Shown here: positions 22,493 to 62,750 of the stretch, in pieces
How the letters are laid out: every line of letters starts with the position of its first letter
Position numbering within the stretch: the stretch's first letter is position 1
DNA from: Gracilibacillus salinarum
GTDB lineage: Bacteria; Bacillota; Bacilli; Bacillales; Amphibacillaceae
NCBI RefSeq assembly: GCF_022919575.1
Contig: NZ_CP095071.1
Coordinates: forward strand, 558,001-622,000
Length of the DNA: 64,000 nucleotides
Reading direction: 5' to 3'
Position numbers and translations under genes: made by a program
Notes under the pieces: generated by a model
The model's database searches: none
Seen by the model: the letters and a program-made list of their open reading frames with translations, nothing else
What the model was told of the DNA's origin: nothing

Positions 22493-22761
22493 TCCATTCA
22501 ACCTTTCTCATTACTACTTCTCTTTCATCTTATCGAATTCAAGCCATTCGAGCAACTAGAAAACTTATTCGATTTTATACAAACAAGAATAATACAGTTA
22601 ACTTGACATAATTCATGTACGGTAAGGCCTTTTATCGACCAGTTCAGTACTAAAACAAATCCCAACCGGAGTCAACGCTATTGTTCATACGCTGCAGCTT
22701 ATTTAAGCAATTTATTGTACTGAGATATATTGATTAGAAAAACCGGGTATAAACCACCCGA

Positions 22762-23490
22762 TCCTAATTGACCTCATTAATATACAACTCCCTATAATAT
22801 GGATTATGTCAACTAAGGCTATATGGCAAAACGGTCATTTTGAAATATTTTATCTGCGTTGCAAAGCTCCGGAAATAGGCTCCGTGTCCTGTGGGTCGGC
22901 GGTCTGCAAGGCTACTACTTGAAATAACATCTTTGCTGCCTTGTGCCGAGGAAGCTCTCTTCGAAGCGGTACTTGCAGACGCAGGCACAAATGAAGTGGA
23001 TCTTCAGCTCGCGCTGAGGCATGAGGAGTCTCCGCCTATTTCCTACGCTTTAGGGAAGTGCTACAATGTATAGAACAGCTAAAAGCAGTGGTTCTACGCA
23101 TTATGTTATTCAAAAGCTGATATTTATGATGTGATCAATATGCTAGCAATTTCAAAAGTTGTAGAGCAAATATCTTAGCGTAGGCCAACCACGTAGACTC
23201 CCGCGGGACAGGCAGGTGCTGGAGAGCCACAACGTCTGCACCTGCGTCTACTAGTAAAGCTTCGACGTAGGCTTCCTCGGTGCAAGGCAGCAGAGAAGTA
23301 TTTCGGGTAGTAGCCTAGCTTCAGCCGTGCCCCGCAGGAGTGGTTGACCGAAGCGGTATCCCAGCATATTAAATATCTCAACATGAGTGCTTGGCTAGCA
23401 ATGGCTAGTTGGCATAATCCATATTATAGGGACCTATCTTCCTATTCAGCATGATTACTTCTACGACTGTACTTATATGCTTTCTTTGCT
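22762..23490 (+). repeat. Family-1 two-module repeat, copy A (long/long cassettes)
   Basis: The core runs 22791-23430 between terminal inverted repeats (left CCTATAATATGGATTATG, right its complement). The left flank carries a TTGACC-N19-TATAAT signal (22768-22798). Module 1 has a basal stem GGAAATAGGC/GCCTATTTCC (22871-22880 with 23034-23043). Module 2 has a basal stem CCAACCAC/GTGGTTG (23185-23192 with 23340-23346). Both modules carry the long apical cassette, in opposite orientation (about 22912-23005 and 23225-23315). The right flank (23431-23490) is a shared outer arm. No credible gene is present. The stretch 22502-22761 shows nothing else recognisable apart from a weak resemblance to a repeat end at 22607-22630. 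Confidence 0.9.
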
Positions 23491-23505
23491 TACGAGTAAG
23501 GCATA

Positions 23506-23544: not shown

Positions 23545-24843
23545 TTATTGACCTTCATTTAATAGCTTGTGTAAGTCCTCAAAGAAGGTTGGATAGGAGA
23601 TGTTAATGCATTCGTCGTCGTGTAATTCTACTTTATCATCTATTAGTAAGGAGGCGATTGCAATCATCATACCAATTCGATGGTCGCCAAATGATTCTGT
23701 TACACCACCATTTAAGGATGTGCCACCTTCGATTACCATCCCATCAGTGGTCGGGGTAATAGACGCACCTAATTTCGTTAACGTCTTAACCACAGAATCA
23801 ATTCGATCTGTTTCTTTAAAACGCAATTCTTCCGCATCTTTTATAACCGTTTGCCCTTTTGCCTGGGTTGCTAACAGGGCAATGATTGGAATTTCATCAA
23901 TAATACGTGGAATGATATCTCCTTCAATAACAGCTGCTTTTGGCTCTGAAGAGTGAACTGTGATATCACCGATTGGTTCACCACCTATATTCTTCTTCTC
24001 TTTCACGCTAATTGAAACACCCATCAGTTCTAATACATCAATTATACCAGTTCTTGTCGGGTTCAATCCGACATTTTCTATCGTAATTTCACTGTCAGGC
24101 GCAATTGCTGCTGCAACTAAGAAGAAGGCAGCTGAAGATATATCGCCTGGTACTTCAATTTCGCAACCTCTTAACGTTTGATTACCTCGGACAGTGACCT
24201 TATTTCCTTCTACTGTTAAATCAGCACCAAATGCTTTTAACATATTTTCTGTATGATCTCTTGTTTTGGTTTCCTCTACAACGATTGTTTCTCCATCTGT
24301 CAGGAGTCCTGCAAGTAAAACACCTGATTTTACTTGAGCGCTTTTGACAGCAGGATAAAACGTAATAGGACTTAAACCGCCACCACGGACCGACATCGGT
24401 AATAAACGACCATTGTTACGCCCATCAATTTTTGCTCCCATCTCACGTAGTGGGTCAGCTATACGATCCATTGGTCTCTTAGATAGGGAAGCATCACCAT
24501 ATAGTGTATAGTGATGAGGTAACCCAGCTAGAATGCCCATCAGTAAGCGGGCAGTAGTACCGGAATTACCGAGATTAATCGGTTCTACCGGTTCTTTTAG
24601 TCCTTCAAATCCAGCCGATTCAATCCTAACTGTATGTTGCTCACGTTGAATAGCTACGCCCATCGATTGGAATGCACCTATAGTTGACAGACAATCTTCC
24701 CCTACCAGGAAGTTGGTGATGGTCGTTTTCCCTTCAGCTAATGCACCAAACATTACCGCGCGATGTGATATAGATTTGTCACCAGGTACGCGAATTTTTC
24801 CAGACAATTTCTGATTTTGAAAAGCTAACACTTTATGAGACAA
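23545..24843 (-). CDS. aroA: 3-phosphoshikimate 1-carboxyvinyltransferase (EPSP synthase)
   Basis: This enzyme joins PEP and shikimate-3-phosphate, the sixth shikimate step. The two signatures are GDKSISHRAVMFGAL near residue 20 and LRFKETDRI near residue 340. LNLGNSGTTARLL-type and FGDHRIGMM residues are intact. The start is TTG with AGAGGTG upstream. The 432-residue length is normal. In B. subtilis this gene is called aroE. It is the last gene of the cluster. Confidence 0.97.
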   Translation of the reverse strand: MSHKVLAFQNQKLSGKIRVPGDKSISHRAVMFGALAEGKTTITNFLVGEDCLSTIGAFQSMGVAIQREQHTVRIESAGFEGLKEPVEPINLGNSGTTARLLMGILAGLPHHYTLYGDASLSKRPMDRIADPLREMGAKIDGRNNGRLLPMSVRGGGLSPITFYPAVKSAQVKSGVLLAGLLTDGETIVVEETKTRDHTENMLKAFGADLTVEGNKVTVRGNQTLRGCEIEVPGDISSAAFFLVAAAIAPDSEITIENVGLNPTRTGIIDVLELMGVSISVKEKKNIGGEPIGDITVHSSEPKAAVIEGDIIPRIIDEIPIIALLATQAKGQTVIKDAEELRFKETDRIDSVVKTLTKLGASITPTTDGMVIEGGTSLNGGVTESFGDHRIGMMIAIASLLIDDKVELHDDECINISYPTFFEDLHKLLNEGQ

Positions 24844-34472: not shown

Positions 34473-34569
34473 CATTAGCAAATATGAGATATATACAAAA
34501 TTTTGTAATAACTGCTTTGTTTCTAGATCATCAGCGCGTGCTATCGTTTTTTTATGAATAAAGAAAACA

Positions 34570-34660
34570 TGTAAGTACAATCATAAAAGTAATCATACTG
34601 AATAGGAAGATAGGTTCTGATAATATGGATTAAGCACATATTTCATTTCAAAATTACCAC
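34570..34660 (-). repeat. Family-1 repeat fragment F (solo end)
   Basis: On the minus strand this reads ATCCATATTATCAGAACC, then TATCTTCCTATTCAGTATG and TGATTGTACTTACATG. It matches the right terminal repeat and outer arm of copy A. GGTAATTTTGAAATG just inside the end also occurs in copy D. Both stem-loop modules are missing, so it is a deletion remnant. Confidence 0.75.
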
Positions 34661-36507: not shown

Positions 36508-36660
36508 ACCTAATAACGTCGTTTATGTTAGTTTGCTAGGAGGTCATTTTGTATTAATTCTTATGCTTTGATACCGATTCGGTCAACCACATCACTAGGA
36601 TAGGAGCTCTACAACCCCTGAAAGATCAAACATATAGAGAGCATATGCCAAAATTTTTAT
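36508..36660 (+). repeat. Family-1 repeat remnant (decayed, inverted)
   Basis: A degenerate end (CTACCTAATAACGTCGTTTA) is followed by GGTCATTTTG, then GATACCGATTCGGTCAACCA, then TAGGATAGGAGCTCTACAACC. These match the reverse complement of the right half of copies A-C in order, with the apical cassette and left module deleted. It sits directly left of full copy B, so the site has been used at least twice. The bases 36280-36507 show nothing recognisable. Confidence 0.65.
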
Positions 36661-36720
36661 ACTCCATACACTTTCAGTTTCACTACGTCGAACTTCTTCG
36701 TCACTAAAATTTTGACCGGT

Positions 36721-37346
36721 CCTAATTGACATAAATTATATACAACTACCTATAATGTGGATTATGTAAACAAAGGCTGTATTGCAAAATAGTCATTTTG
36801 ATATTTTTTATCTGCTTAGCAAAGCTCCGGAAATAGGCTCCGCGTCCTGTGGGCACGGCTTCAGCTAATTTAGGAAAGAAAATTCTTTTCTTTCCTAAAT
36901 GGATCTTCAGCTCGCGCTGATTCCACGGGAGTCTCCGCCTATTTCCTACGCTTTAGGGAAGTGCTACAACTAATGGAACAGCTAAAAGCAGTGGTTCTAG
37001 GCATTATGTTAATCATTCAATACCTGTTATATAGGGATGAGTGATCAATATGTTATATCTTAAAAAGGTTGTAGAGTACCAATTTTAGCGTAGGCCAACC
37101 ACGTAGACTCCCGCGGGACAGGCAGGCGCTGAAGATCCACAACGTCTGCACCTGCGTCTACTAGTAATGCTTCGAAGTTGGCTTCCTCGGTGCAAGGCAG
37201 CAAAGAAGTAACGCAAGTAGTAGCCTAGCTTCAGCCGTACCCCGCAGGACGCGGAGTGGTTGGACGGAGCGGTATCCAAGCACATTGAATATCTCAATAT
37301 GGCTGCTTGGCTAGCGATGGCTAGTTAACATAATCCACATTATAGG
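36721..37346 (+). repeat. Family-1 two-module repeat, copy B (short/long cassettes)
   Basis: The core runs 36749-37346 between terminal inverted repeats that both carry the same private change (ATGTGG instead of ATATGG). The left flank has TTGACA-N19-TATAAT (36726-36756). Module 1 holds the short apical hairpin, a perfect 15-bp stem with a 3-base loop at 36868-36900. Module 2 holds the long cassette, with basal stem CCAACCAC/GTGGTTGG. It lies between spoIVA and yphF. The left half shares TCCTAATTGAC and ACAACT with copies A and C. Confidence 0.9.
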
Positions 37347-37472
37347 AACTCATATTCATCTTTTTTTCGTGGGAAATTGCAGAACGTTGCGTCGTTTATG
37401 GACACCCGTGTGGTCTTAGCTGTTTATGTTAGAAAACTGAACGAAAAGTTAAGACGCTTTCTCACTTCACAA

Positions 37473-43319: not shown

Positions 43320-43409
43320 AATATTATAGGAACCTATTTCCTATTCAGCATGATTACTTCTACTACTGTCCTTATGGCCGTTTTTGCTTATAAGAAAAAA
43401 CGGCCATAA
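43320..43409. repeat. Family-1 outer arm fragment with hairpin
   Basis: ATATTATAGGAACC starts a truncated terminal repeat, followed by the outer arm (CCTATTCAGCATGATTAC) seen right of copy A. It ends in a 14-bp perfect hairpin (43372-43385 with 43396-43409, TTATGGCCGTTTTT and complement). This fragment directly precedes copy C, so two family-1 ends lie side by side. Confidence 0.75.
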
Positions 43410-43414
43410 CACGC

Positions 43415-44040
43415 CCGGTCCTAATTGACTTAATCAATAAACAACTTCCTATAATATGGATTATGTTAACAAAGGCTTTATGGCAAAACGGTCATTTTGA
43501 AATATTTTATCTGCGTTGCATAGCTCCGGAAATAGGCTCCGCGTCCTGTGGGCACGGCTTCAGCTAATTTATGAAAGAAAATTCTTTTCTTTCATAAATG
43601 GATCTTCAGCTCGCGCTGATTCCACGGGAGTCTCCGCCTATTTCCTACGCTTATGGGAAGTACTACAACGATTGGAACAGCTAGAAGCAGTGGTGCTTAG
43701 CAATGTATTTCATCAATTATGGTGTAAATCTTGCAGATAGTGCTTCATATCCTAGCTGTCGCATAAATTGTGGAGCTATACATCAGCGGAGGCCAACCAC
43801 GGAGACTCCCGCGGGATTGTGCAGGTGCTGGAGATCCACTTTGTGAAGCGTTCTTCTTCACAAAGTTAGCTCCAGCCGTGCCCCGCAGGACGCGGAGTGG
43901 TTGGACGGAGCGGTATCATACCACACATAATTTTTCAAAATGACCACTAAGCTGCTAGTTTACATAATCCATATTATAGGAACTAAAATTCATGTTCAAT
44001 GTGATTACTGCTGTGACTGTACTTATATACTTTCTTTACT
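43415..44040 (+). repeat. Family-1 two-module repeat, copy C (short/short cassettes)
   Basis: The core is 43448-43980 between terminal inverted repeats, with TTGACT-N19-TATAAT at 43425-43455. Module 1 has basal stem GGAAATAGGC/GCCTATTTCC and a short hairpin at 43567-43599. Module 2 has basal stem CCAACCAC/GTGGTTGG and a short hairpin at 43838-43866. The outer arm on the right (43981-44040) matches the arm of copy A. Both modules contain the CCCGCGGG or CCACGGG type inner stems. It separates ypfD from yphA. Confidence 0.9.
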
Positions 44041-44047
44041 CATAAAG

Positions 44048-47371: not shown

Positions 47372-47728
47372 GAAGTATAAAAATGCAGTCACAGCAGTAA
47401 TCCTATTGAACATGGACTCGAGTTCTTATAATATGGATTATGTAAACTGCTTAGCGGTATGGTAATTTTGAAATGTTTTGTACTGAAAAGCTAAAATAGG
47501 ATTAGAAAAATTGGGAAAGCAGAGCTCTTGGAATTGCCCCACGCCCTGTGGATGCGCTTTCATTTAGGCTACTACGTGAACTACTTCTTCGCTGCCTTCT
47601 GCTATCCAAATGAAATTCATCAGTATTATCAAAATATCAGATAGATTCATCTTACATCATCCTAATTATAAGAACCTGTCTTCCTAATCAGCATGAATAC
47701 TATCATGACTGTACTTATGCTTTCTATA
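47372..47728. repeat. Family-1 repeat, copy D (decayed)
   Basis: The outer arm occurs at both edges in opposite orientation (47372-47424 and 47672-47728). The left terminal repeat (TTATAATATGGATTATG) is good; the right one is degenerate. Inside, only a rest of module 1 remains: CGCCCTGTGG and a piece of the long cassette (GGCTACTACGTGAACTAC, then CGCTGCCTTCTGC). Module 2 is gone. It lies between ypeB and ypfA. Confidence 0.75.
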
Positions 47729-58539: not shown

Positions 58540-58934
58540 ATAGGACGATATAAGTGCAGTCTGCTGAATAGGAAGATACTTTCTTATAATATGGATTATG
58601 TTAATTAACTGCTTAGTGGTTATTTTGAAATGTTTCAAGTGCATGAATTCAGATTCAGCGCCTGCTTGTCCCGCGGGAGTCTACGTGGTTGGATTACGCT
58701 AGGATAGGGACGCTGCAACTTTTGTAAGAGGTAGCATATTGACGGCTGTATATATCACAGCGATAAAGTGAATAACATAATGTCTAGAACTACTGCTTTT
58801 AGTTGTTCCATACGTTGTAGGACTTCTCCTTAAGCGTAGGAACTATGCGGAGACTCCTCATGCCTCAGCACAAGCTGAAGGTCCACTTTGTCTGTGCCTG
58901 TATCTGCAAGTATTTACATACTACAATTCTTATA
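58540..58934 (-). repeat. Family-1 repeat, copy E (inverted, apical cassettes lost)
   Basis: An outer arm (CTGAATAGGAAGATAC) and terminal repeat (TTATAATATGGATTATG) open the copy. The inner part reads CCCGCGGGAGTCTACGTGGT, then the central spacer (AACTACTGCTTTTAGTTGTT), then AGCGTAGGAACTATGCGGAG. These are the reverse complement of the centre of copies A and B. The apical cassettes and far arms of both modules are gone. The right end is degenerate (about 58914-58934). It follows fer. Confidence 0.8.
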
Positions 58935-61784: not shown

Positions 61785-61861
61785 TCCAAGCATTATGCAA
61801 GTATGTATAGATAACAAACACTACTTTACATGCCTAATCCCCGAAGCATGAATAGATGTCA

Positions 61862-62005
61862 GATGGCAGGTCTCCTGACTTTGTGCTTAATTCTACTTCA
61901 GCACCTTCCCATACATCAAATATTATGTACAGTGGTTGTCGCTGTTTCGTTTGCACTTACAGTTGCGAGGACAGTTCTGGATTTCCACCAGATTCCCTAT
62001 TAAGT
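61862..62005 (-). ncRNA. Cobalamin riboswitch
   Basis: On the minus strand the element starts AATAGGGAATCTGGTGGAAA, then has ACTGTCCTCGCAACTG, a central ACAACCACTG stretch, GGGAAGG, and ends GTCAGGAGACCTGCC. These are the conserved blocks of the adenosylcobalamin/B12 riboswitch in the right order and spacing. It begins 25 bp after the resD stop and controls the DUF4430/S-component genes. There is no clear terminator after it, but a hairpin masks the ribosome site. Confidence 0.95.
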
Positions 62006-62030
62006 ATAGTCACCATCGAACATTCTTCTT

Positions 62031-62750
62031 TTACGGTTTTGTTACTTCGAATTTATAGCCGACACCCCATACTGTTACGATCATTTTTGCAGCTTCTGCA
62101 GATACTTTGTTTAATTTCTCACGAAGTCGTTTCACATGGGTATCGACTGTTCGTAAATCCCCGAAGAATTCATATTTCCATACCTCTTTTAATAAAGCTT
62201 CTCGTTCGAATACTTTATCAGGAGACTTTGCTAGAAATAAAAGTAATTCATATTCTTTTGGTGTTAAACTTACCTCTTGATTGTCTGCTAGCACACGATG
62301 TGCATCATTATCTATGAGTAGATGCTGGAACTCAATCAAGTCTTTTGAGCGAGTTGACTGATTAATAGTAGTTGAAGTAGAGGACCTTCTCAATAACGCT
62401 TTGACGCGCAAAACTACTTCACGTGGACTAAAAGGCTTCACAATATAGTCATCCGTACCAGCTTCAAAGCCGTGAATTCGATTCAGTTCTTCACCTTTTG
62501 CTGTCAACATCATAACTGGTGTAGCCTTATGCAATCTTATTTCTTTACATACCTCTAACCCATCTTTCCCAGGCATCATCAAGTCAAGTAATATCACATC
62601 ATAATCATTCGATAAAGCTAACTTTAATGCTTGTTCGCCGTCTTCTGCTTCTTCTATCTCGTAACCTTCTCGTTCAAGGTACATTTTTAATAAACGACGA
62701 ATTCTTTCCTCATCATCTACCACTAGTATTCTGTTACCTTCTGTTTCCAT
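62031..62750 (-). CDS. resD: Response regulator ResD
   Basis: ResD is an OmpR-type regulator of respiration and anaerobic genes. The receiver domain has VVDDEERIRRLL and the phosphorylated aspartate in ILLDLMMPGKDGLEV, with MLTAKGE and DYIVKPFSPREVV. The C-terminal winged helix has TVDTHVKRLREKL. It is 239 residues. GGGAGG lies before the ATG. It follows resC. Its partner kinase gene resE, normally next to it, is not found; a B12 riboswitch starts instead. Confidence 0.95.
   Translation of the reverse strand: METEGNRILVVDDEERIRRLLKMYLEREGYEIEEAEDGEQALKLALSNDYDVILLDLMMPGKDGLEVCKEIRLHKATPVMMLTAKGEELNRIHGFEAGTDDYIVKPFSPREVVLRVKALLRRSSTSTTINQSTRSKDLIEFQHLLIDNDAHRVLADNQEVSLTPKEYELLLFLAKSPDKVFEREALLKEVWKYEFFGDLRTVDTHVKRLREKLNKVSAEAAKMIVTVWGVGYKFEVTKP

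Follow-up and report, generated by a model that had tools for sequence, protein, structure and literature searches.

A non-coding interspersed repeat of Gracilibacillus bounded by inverted dif-like sites, with a core that host Xer recombinases may invert

Results

The stretch of DNA analysed here (hereafter the window; 64,000 nucleotides) comprises bases 558001-622000 of the Gracilibacillus salinarum genome, a single 4,801,263-base contig designated G000. Three of its intergenic regions carry long copies of a repeat, termed A, B and C (Table 1), and next to copy A, at window positions 23545-24843, lies a gene whose product we take to be AroA. A sequence-only reading of the window had described the three copies as sharing the same ends, as being richer in GC than their surroundings, and as lying between genes without encoding a credible protein, and all of these features are borne out. 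Specifically, the copies can be aligned with each other over hundreds of bases, the best pieces being 72-84% identical (E values from 5e-70 to 1e-142). Their GC contents are 0.472 (A), 0.450 (B) and 0.447 (C), compared with 0.376 for the window, and none is overlapped by any open reading frame of at least 100 amino acids in the window. The intergenic position, checked in the window, is also seen when filled and empty sites are compared between G. salinarum and a sister genome (G011; see below). Across 67 elements of 500-660 bp from these two genomes, the longest stop-free frames span 57-128 codons.

Four deletion derivatives had been proposed as well. Those at 34.6, 47.5 and 58.8 kb are clear, whereas the one at 36.6 kb shrinks to a 47-bp remnant (78.7% identity, E value of 2e-5); a further fragment is present at 43.32-43.38 kb. 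The suspicion that the genome might hold very many copies is well founded, in that the inverted-repeat core occurs 247 + 260 times in the G. salinarum genome when up to three mismatches are allowed, versus 0 and 2 times for a reversed-pattern control. A DNA search with copy C gave 458 candidate places, of which a capped set of 40 was scored. By extrapolation, the 4.8-Mb chromosome should carry roughly 250-270 paired elements.

No copy of the element in the window matches an Rfam family at the gathering cut-off. The sole match in the window at this cut-off is a cobalamin riboswitch located elsewhere (61848-62032, minus strand, 109 bits), and eight sub-threshold matches from a permissive search of copy C were taken as noise. 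The exact inverted-repeat pattern likewise had no match in a genome-contig collection from which the source genome or its nearest relatives may be absent.

Table 1. Copies, derivatives and parts of the repeat in the window (window coordinates; G000 denotes the G. salinarum genome)
Feature	Position	Strand	Basis or remark
Copy A, X arm	22736..22786	+	own terminator-like hairpin, reading outward on minus strand
Copy A, left dif-like site	22787..22814	+	XerC arm outside, XerD arm inside; G000:580787-580814(+)
Copy A, two-module core	22815..23406	+	mutual alignments, orientation scoring
Copy A, right dif-like site, inverted	23407..23434	-	end of element e8
Copy A, Y2 arm	23435..23493	-	flank alignment
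Copy B, X arm	36712..36744	+	flank comparison
Copy B, left dif-like site	36745..36772	+	centre TGTGGA, same as right site
Copy B, core	36773..37322	+	mutual alignments, orientation scoring
Copy B, right dif-like site	37323..37350	-	Y arm outside not recognisable
Copy C, X arm	43392..43443	+	flank alignment
Copy C, left dif-like site	43444..43471	+	G000:601444-601471(+)
Copy C, core	43472..43956	+	DNA search, orientation scoring
Copy C, right dif-like site	43957..43984	-	G000:601957-601984(-)
Copy C, Y1 arm	43985..44045	-	flank alignment
Truncated copy: Y2-type arm and one dif-like site	34560..34635	-	alignment; arm type by eye
Module remnant	36544..36590	-	weak alignment, E 2e-5
Y-arm fragment adjoining copy C	43321..43375	+	alignment
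Short derivative, Y-type arms at both sides	47373..47725	.	alignment; by eye
Truncated copy: one dif-like site, Y-like arm, core module	58562..58912	-	alignment

The inverted repeat shared by the copies reads ACTTCCTATAA-TATGGA-TTATGTNAACT, which fits the 11-6-11 layout of a 28-bp dif site, with the XerD arm conserved, as that layout is set out in PMC6449649. Judged by sequence, the ends of the element are two inverted 28-bp dif-like sites, each with its XerC arm outside, a 6-bp centre, and its XerD arm inside. What had been read as plain repeat ends are therefore inverted dif sites flanking a core that is found in either orientation, a feature that the sequence-only reading missed. The chromosome also has a dif of its own, ACTTCCCATAATATATATTATGTAAACT, at position 530032 with the centre TATATA, close to the switch in sign of the GC skew, which occurs from the 20-kb bin beginning at 520 kb to the one beginning at 540 kb. 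An identical dif is found at the matching place in G011.

A strict dif pattern, ACTTCCTANAATATNNATTATGTNAACT, was run with up to three mismatches against 159 genomes of the family. It is matched in 137 of them, and 157 hold between zero and two sites. The two exceptional genomes are G. salinarum with 182 + 186 = 368 sites and G011 with 72 + 70 = 142, and the reversed-pattern control gave 0 in both. A relaxed pattern finds 375 sites in G. salinarum, 221 in G011, and 107 (50 + 57) in a third genome, G007 (controls 0, 1 and 1, the last as 0 + 1), compared with no more than 8 elsewhere, the 8 being in G054, which belongs to another genus. In G. salinarum, dif-like sites occupy every 100-kb bin from 400 to 1660 kb, at 10-24 per 100 kb with 6 in the last 60 kb. 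The other 14 members of the genus have one to four relaxed-pattern sites each, and since all 14 yield at least one match to the copy-C query, related modules evidently exist without dif pairs.

The AroA-like protein beside copy A is up to 79% identical to counterparts in several named Gracilibacillus. Of 18 named loci with an aroA-like gene (12 from Gracilibacillus), four carry modules and none has a dif-like site. Loci L277, L279, L280 and L310, from several named Gracilibacillus species, have family modules downstream of the gene, at about the place of copy A, and by eye the module ends look different from those of the G. salinarum element. In G054, the same kind of GC-rich module lies beside the dif-like sequence ACTTCACATAAGCTGTATTATGTGCAGT (locus L229), and a second, degenerate site is present about 470 bp away.

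The anatomy of the element was derived from the flanks of 23 full-length copies and from 54 copies with both arms. The repeat is larger than had been described, as two conserved arms, X of some 55 bp and Y of some 60 bp, extend outside the inverted repeat. In one reading direction, the order is host terminator, Y arm, dif site, core, inverted dif site, X arm, and host DNA. The X arm contains its own terminator-like hairpin, and the core, mostly 150-650 bp long, is non-coding and partly self-complementary. Terminator-like structures immediately precede the Y end in 38 of the 54 elements (26 when the other strand is scored). They are found within the X arm in 42 elements (3 on the other strand) and past the X end in 5 (7 on the other strand), relative to a background of 50 in 540 random stretches. 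In the 1.66 Mb of the G. salinarum genome scanned, a dif site follows 54 of 56 X arms, 73 of 80 Y1 arms and 55 of 61 Y2 arms, the Y1 and Y2 counts overlapping. Because the arms are nearly always followed by such a site, the dif-like site belongs to the element. In the G. salinarum sample, 72 solo sites occur beside 108 pairs, such that about a quarter of the sampled sites are unpaired. Inspection by eye shows no inverted-repeat relationship between the X and Y ends.

Comparison with G011, which is 88% identical to G. salinarum over a 6.1-kb stretch, gives 75 collinear blocks over about 410 kb when collinear hits alone are chained, and element sites are found that are filled in one genome and empty in the other. 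For example, element e3, at 480 kb in G. salinarum, follows TTTTTTTAT, and its own end is TTTTTTCTTAT. Here the host flank and the X end are both T-tracts, which could hide a target duplication. Several elements (at about 500.2, 532.3, 997 and 1483 kb) adjoin a repeat of a different family, whose end reads GGGCGCTTGCGCCTTTGTTC.

Three long copies contain nested insertions, with open reading frames whose translations we read as a transposase-like protein in e42 (G000:C1:1253283-1255248), presumably a group II intron-type reverse transcriptase in e54 (G000:C1:1440279-1442752), and what we take to be an IS110-like protein in e77 (G000:C1:2318261-2320688). A look for an autonomous partner of the element among the long copies turned up only these nested insertions.

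The orientation of the core was examined in 94 paired elements, each bounded by inverted Xer sites, from 1.66 of the 4.80 Mb of the G. salinarum genome. Of these, 82 had a core whose direction could be assigned and one or both arms recognisable; the other 12, being ambiguous or lacking arms, were left out. Relative to the arms, the core lies one way in 56 elements and is reversed in 26. When orientation is mapped onto a tree of the cores of 63 of the 82 scorable elements, those 500-660 bp long (44 and 19 by orientation), it changes 18 times versus a shuffled mean of 16.5, and is thus random with respect to core relatedness. The nearest pair of cores, e21 (819487) and e30 (1012334), differs by a single base between the dif sites, and the two cores have opposite orientations; two further differences fall in the XerC half-sites. 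The orientation of e21 rests on its Y arm, its X arm having diverged and been scored as unrecognised.

Linkage followed base by base over 164 ends shows that positions up to +2 go with the arm, whereas positions from +23 go with the core end. Between these limits lies a nearly invariant stretch, and the switch in linkage is therefore inside the dif core. Some inward positions keep a weak residual tie to the arm, as is expected from the 56:26 imbalance in orientation. These patterns in the sequences show a core lying in either orientation relative to its arms, with a breakpoint that falls in the dif core.

Strand exchange by a tyrosine recombinase predicts that the two sites of an element should agree in their centres. 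In the listed part of G011 (0.80 of 4.51 Mb), the central hexamers are equal in 16 of 26 elements (shuffle mean 7.3; 0 of 10000 shuffles), with 10 of 12 equal in one region and 6 of 14 in the other, which alone is not significant (mean 4.1; 1626 of 10000). In G011 it is positions 12-14, in the centre, that agree, and the arms contribute little if anything (XerC-arm position 8 has 1 difference versus 3.0 expected). In G007, the centres are equal in 7 of 10 pairs (mean 2.5; 21 of 10000), these pairs having been picked by eye among 73 listed sites. In G. salinarum the excess is small, at 61 of 85 (mean 54.0; 6 of 10000), for a set paired by a slightly stricter rule than the 94 elements. There is also evidence to the contrary, as 27 of 30 G. 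salinarum pairs with a non-standard centre have unequal centres. Moreover, position 23 in the XerD arm agrees within pairs too (37 differences versus 56.6 expected in G. salinarum; 1 versus 5.4 in G007), and the centre agreement is inflated because the copies are not independent and share subfamily history.

Cores and arms can also be compared for common descent. On the core tree, the Y1/Y2 arm subtype changes 11 times versus 11.8 after shuffling (55 rows), and the X1/X2 subtype 12 times versus 10.7 (44 rows), such that neither is linked to the core. Among 64 elements of 450-670 bp, core identity reaches 95% or more in 14 pairs, and in 7 of these the two cores point in opposite directions. The arms of these close-core pairs have median identities of 0.84 (X) and 0.79 (Y), somewhat above the random-pair medians of 0.66 and 0.73 but far below the cores. 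This sequence pattern suggests that cores move between arms. Plain copying of whole elements is disfavoured, as the arms are more diverged than the cores. Elements e1 and e5 have both core and arms in common.

Such reshuffling might instead come from RecA-dependent homologous recombination or gene conversion among hundreds of copies, with the resemblance to dif inherited and inactive. The unlinked subtypes would suit this explanation, and terminal core bases in the close pairs are just 0.69-0.77 alike in an ungapped profile rather than sharply conserved, such that gene conversion may contribute. A flip of the core relative to the arms, however, would need crossovers inside about 20 bp of dif at both sides, a length too short for RecA, and gene conversion does not predict agreement concentrated in a 6-bp centre, as in G011. 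We consider RecA-based reshuffling improbable, while ranking it first among the alternatives.

Two further observations concern the arms. The reversed core is commoner with Y2 (9 of 13) than with Y1 (10 of 42). Of 72 G. salinarum elements with both arms typed, two (L009 and L020) have Y on both sides and none has X on both. The two Y..Y elements may be rare inter-element crossovers or may have decayed arms that were mis-typed. From these counts, surviving crossovers between distant elements are rare.

Discussion

We propose, with good though not full confidence, that the repeat is non-autonomous and interspersed, and that the host recombinases XerC and XerD invert its core and perhaps exchange it. 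In this model, arms X and Y embrace an inverted dif pair (C|D ... D|C), which in turn embraces a non-coding core. Recombination between the two sites of one element by XerC and XerD would invert the core, and occasional recombination with another element might exchange cores between docking sites. More speculatively, the X and Y arms could be the ends of an inserting unit that goes in immediately downstream of an intrinsic terminator and carries a terminator of its own in X. By default, we regard the relationship of the element to its host as parasitism. A bolder version, in which a few hundred docking sites would form a natural network for recombinase-mediated cassette exchange, with host XerC and XerD both flipping and swapping the non-coding core, is offered tentatively, as we think it less probable than not.

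The earlier reading left a choice between a non-autonomous mobile element and an interspersed structured-RNA family. The first is supported by the very high copy number, the absence of a gene, the filled and empty sites in sister genomes and the lack of an Rfam match. The second, as a dispersed family of RNA genes with a cellular function, might draw on the very stable fold (z score of -19.5 as RNA, from 20 shuffles), on the related modules in other genus members and on -35-like and -10-like bases seen by eye around the dif site. A promoter role for the X and Y arms, where the distance from -35-like bases to the TATAAT in dif is 19 and 15 by eye, was set aside. The description of the repeat as a stem-loop is correct insofar as the fold is strong, with a z score of -14.2 as DNA, but much of this follows from the inverted-repeat layout itself. 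Furthermore, a strand-specific structured RNA is disfavoured by ends that are inverted dif sites and by a core found in either orientation: with about a third of scorable cores reversed, transcripts starting in the arms would not all be of one strand. Given also the absence of an Rfam match, a functional RNA family seems distinctly unlikely.

Even less probable, in our judgment, is an independent status of the core as a MITE that inserts either way into a pre-existing X-Y repeat and has terminal inverted repeats resembling dif by chance. The random orientation and the independence of arms and core would be explained, but core-less X-Y targets are almost absent from the 1.66 Mb scanned (a few deletion products are seen), the XerC half-site tracks the arm rather than the core, and 157 of 159 family genomes hold just 0-2 strict-pattern sites.

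G. salinarum encodes XerD, a XerC-like protein at 266 kb, and a XerS-type recombinase beside dif. Proteins matching the first two, and similar to them in length, are encoded in G011 and G007. The gene for the XerS-type protein (G000:C1:528815-529927; L075:8815-9927) lies about 100 bp from the chromosomal dif, and its product scores as the NCBIfam XerS equivalog (402.3 bits; cut-off 267). XerS searches find XerC/XerD-level matches only in G011 and G007 (best E values of 2.0e-22 and 2.4e-20); of all 16 genus members searched besides G. salinarum, 15 have only matches at this level or weaker, and G004 has a 40%-identical relative. Attractive as its place beside dif may be, XerS is a very unlikely enzyme, since G011 and G007 have elements with agreeing centres and XerC/XerD counterparts but no XerS-level match, which leaves XerC and XerD as the best candidates. 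In Bacillus subtilis, the translocases SftA and SpoIIIE are not known as direct activators of CodV and RipX, as far as the account in PMC5357621 goes. Xer activity far from the terminus is therefore possible.

MITE- and REP-type interspersed repeats are short, non-coding, intergenic, rich in hairpins and present in many copies. The element is similar in all of these respects, but no transposase-type terminal repeat was recognised in it; instead, its inverted repeats are recombinase sites and its core apparently flips. Closer in layout are the dif (pdif) modules of Acinetobacter, in which, according to PMC6449649 and PMC12907356, a pair of Xer sites in inverted orientation (C/D and D/C) flanks the DNA. 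According to the same accounts, Acinetobacter chromosomes have additional dif sites with a centre differing from that of the main dif, and PMC6449649 gives their number as usually one to five, with a maximum of 14-15. The G. salinarum element too is bounded by two inverted Xer sites. However, the Acinetobacter modules, as described, carry genes and are often on plasmids, whereas its cargo is non-coding (longest stop-free frames of 57-128 codons in the 67 elements noted above), and its sites number in the hundreds and sit inside a larger interspersed repeat.

A second parallel is the attP of filamentous vibriophages (IMEX), in which, as reported in PMC3089051, two opposed dif-like sites pair in the single strand to form a double-stranded Xer site. 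Similarly, when the core of copy C is folded in silico as single-stranded DNA, its two dif sites are predicted to pair. Unlike these phages, as described there, the element has no phage genes, and it inserts away from the chromosomal dif, largely beside terminators. Finally, XerC/RipX/CodV-type enzymes have been proposed to invert DNA between short inverted repeats in Mollicutes, as PMC3599477 outlines for the Ureaplasma mba locus. These phase-variable inversions, in the portrayal available, concern two named loci, whereas the element is a repeat family. Neither the Acinetobacter modules nor the vibriophage attP, as presented in these sources, is a non-coding interspersed repeat family, and no description of this element was found in the literature within the library searched.

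A different arrangement appears in four genomes of another family of the same order (f44; G452, G490, G509 and G432), which have 28-58 dif-like sites each, with 0-2 in controls. In these genomes (loci L263, L269, L273 and L275), many of the sites face the same way and are spaced 0.4-1.1 kb from each other. Their central hexamers mostly differ, and at several of the loci read an open reading frame separates one site from the next. Such loci resemble arrays of gene cassettes with Xer sites, here in Firmicutes, and are unlike the element in arrangement.

The dif site is held to be a single chromosomal site, with recombination confined to the terminus at division. In G. salinarum, hundreds of dif-like sites, arranged as facing pairs, have evidently recombined, yet the chromosome has the 75 collinear blocks in common with G011 over about 410 kb (collinear hits alone being chained), which raises the question of what restricts Xer recombination to nearby pairs. 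The element makes it testable whether XerC and XerD act away from the terminus in Firmicutes. If they do so here, the element would be a new class of invertible element, in which a repeat family has taken over a housekeeping site.
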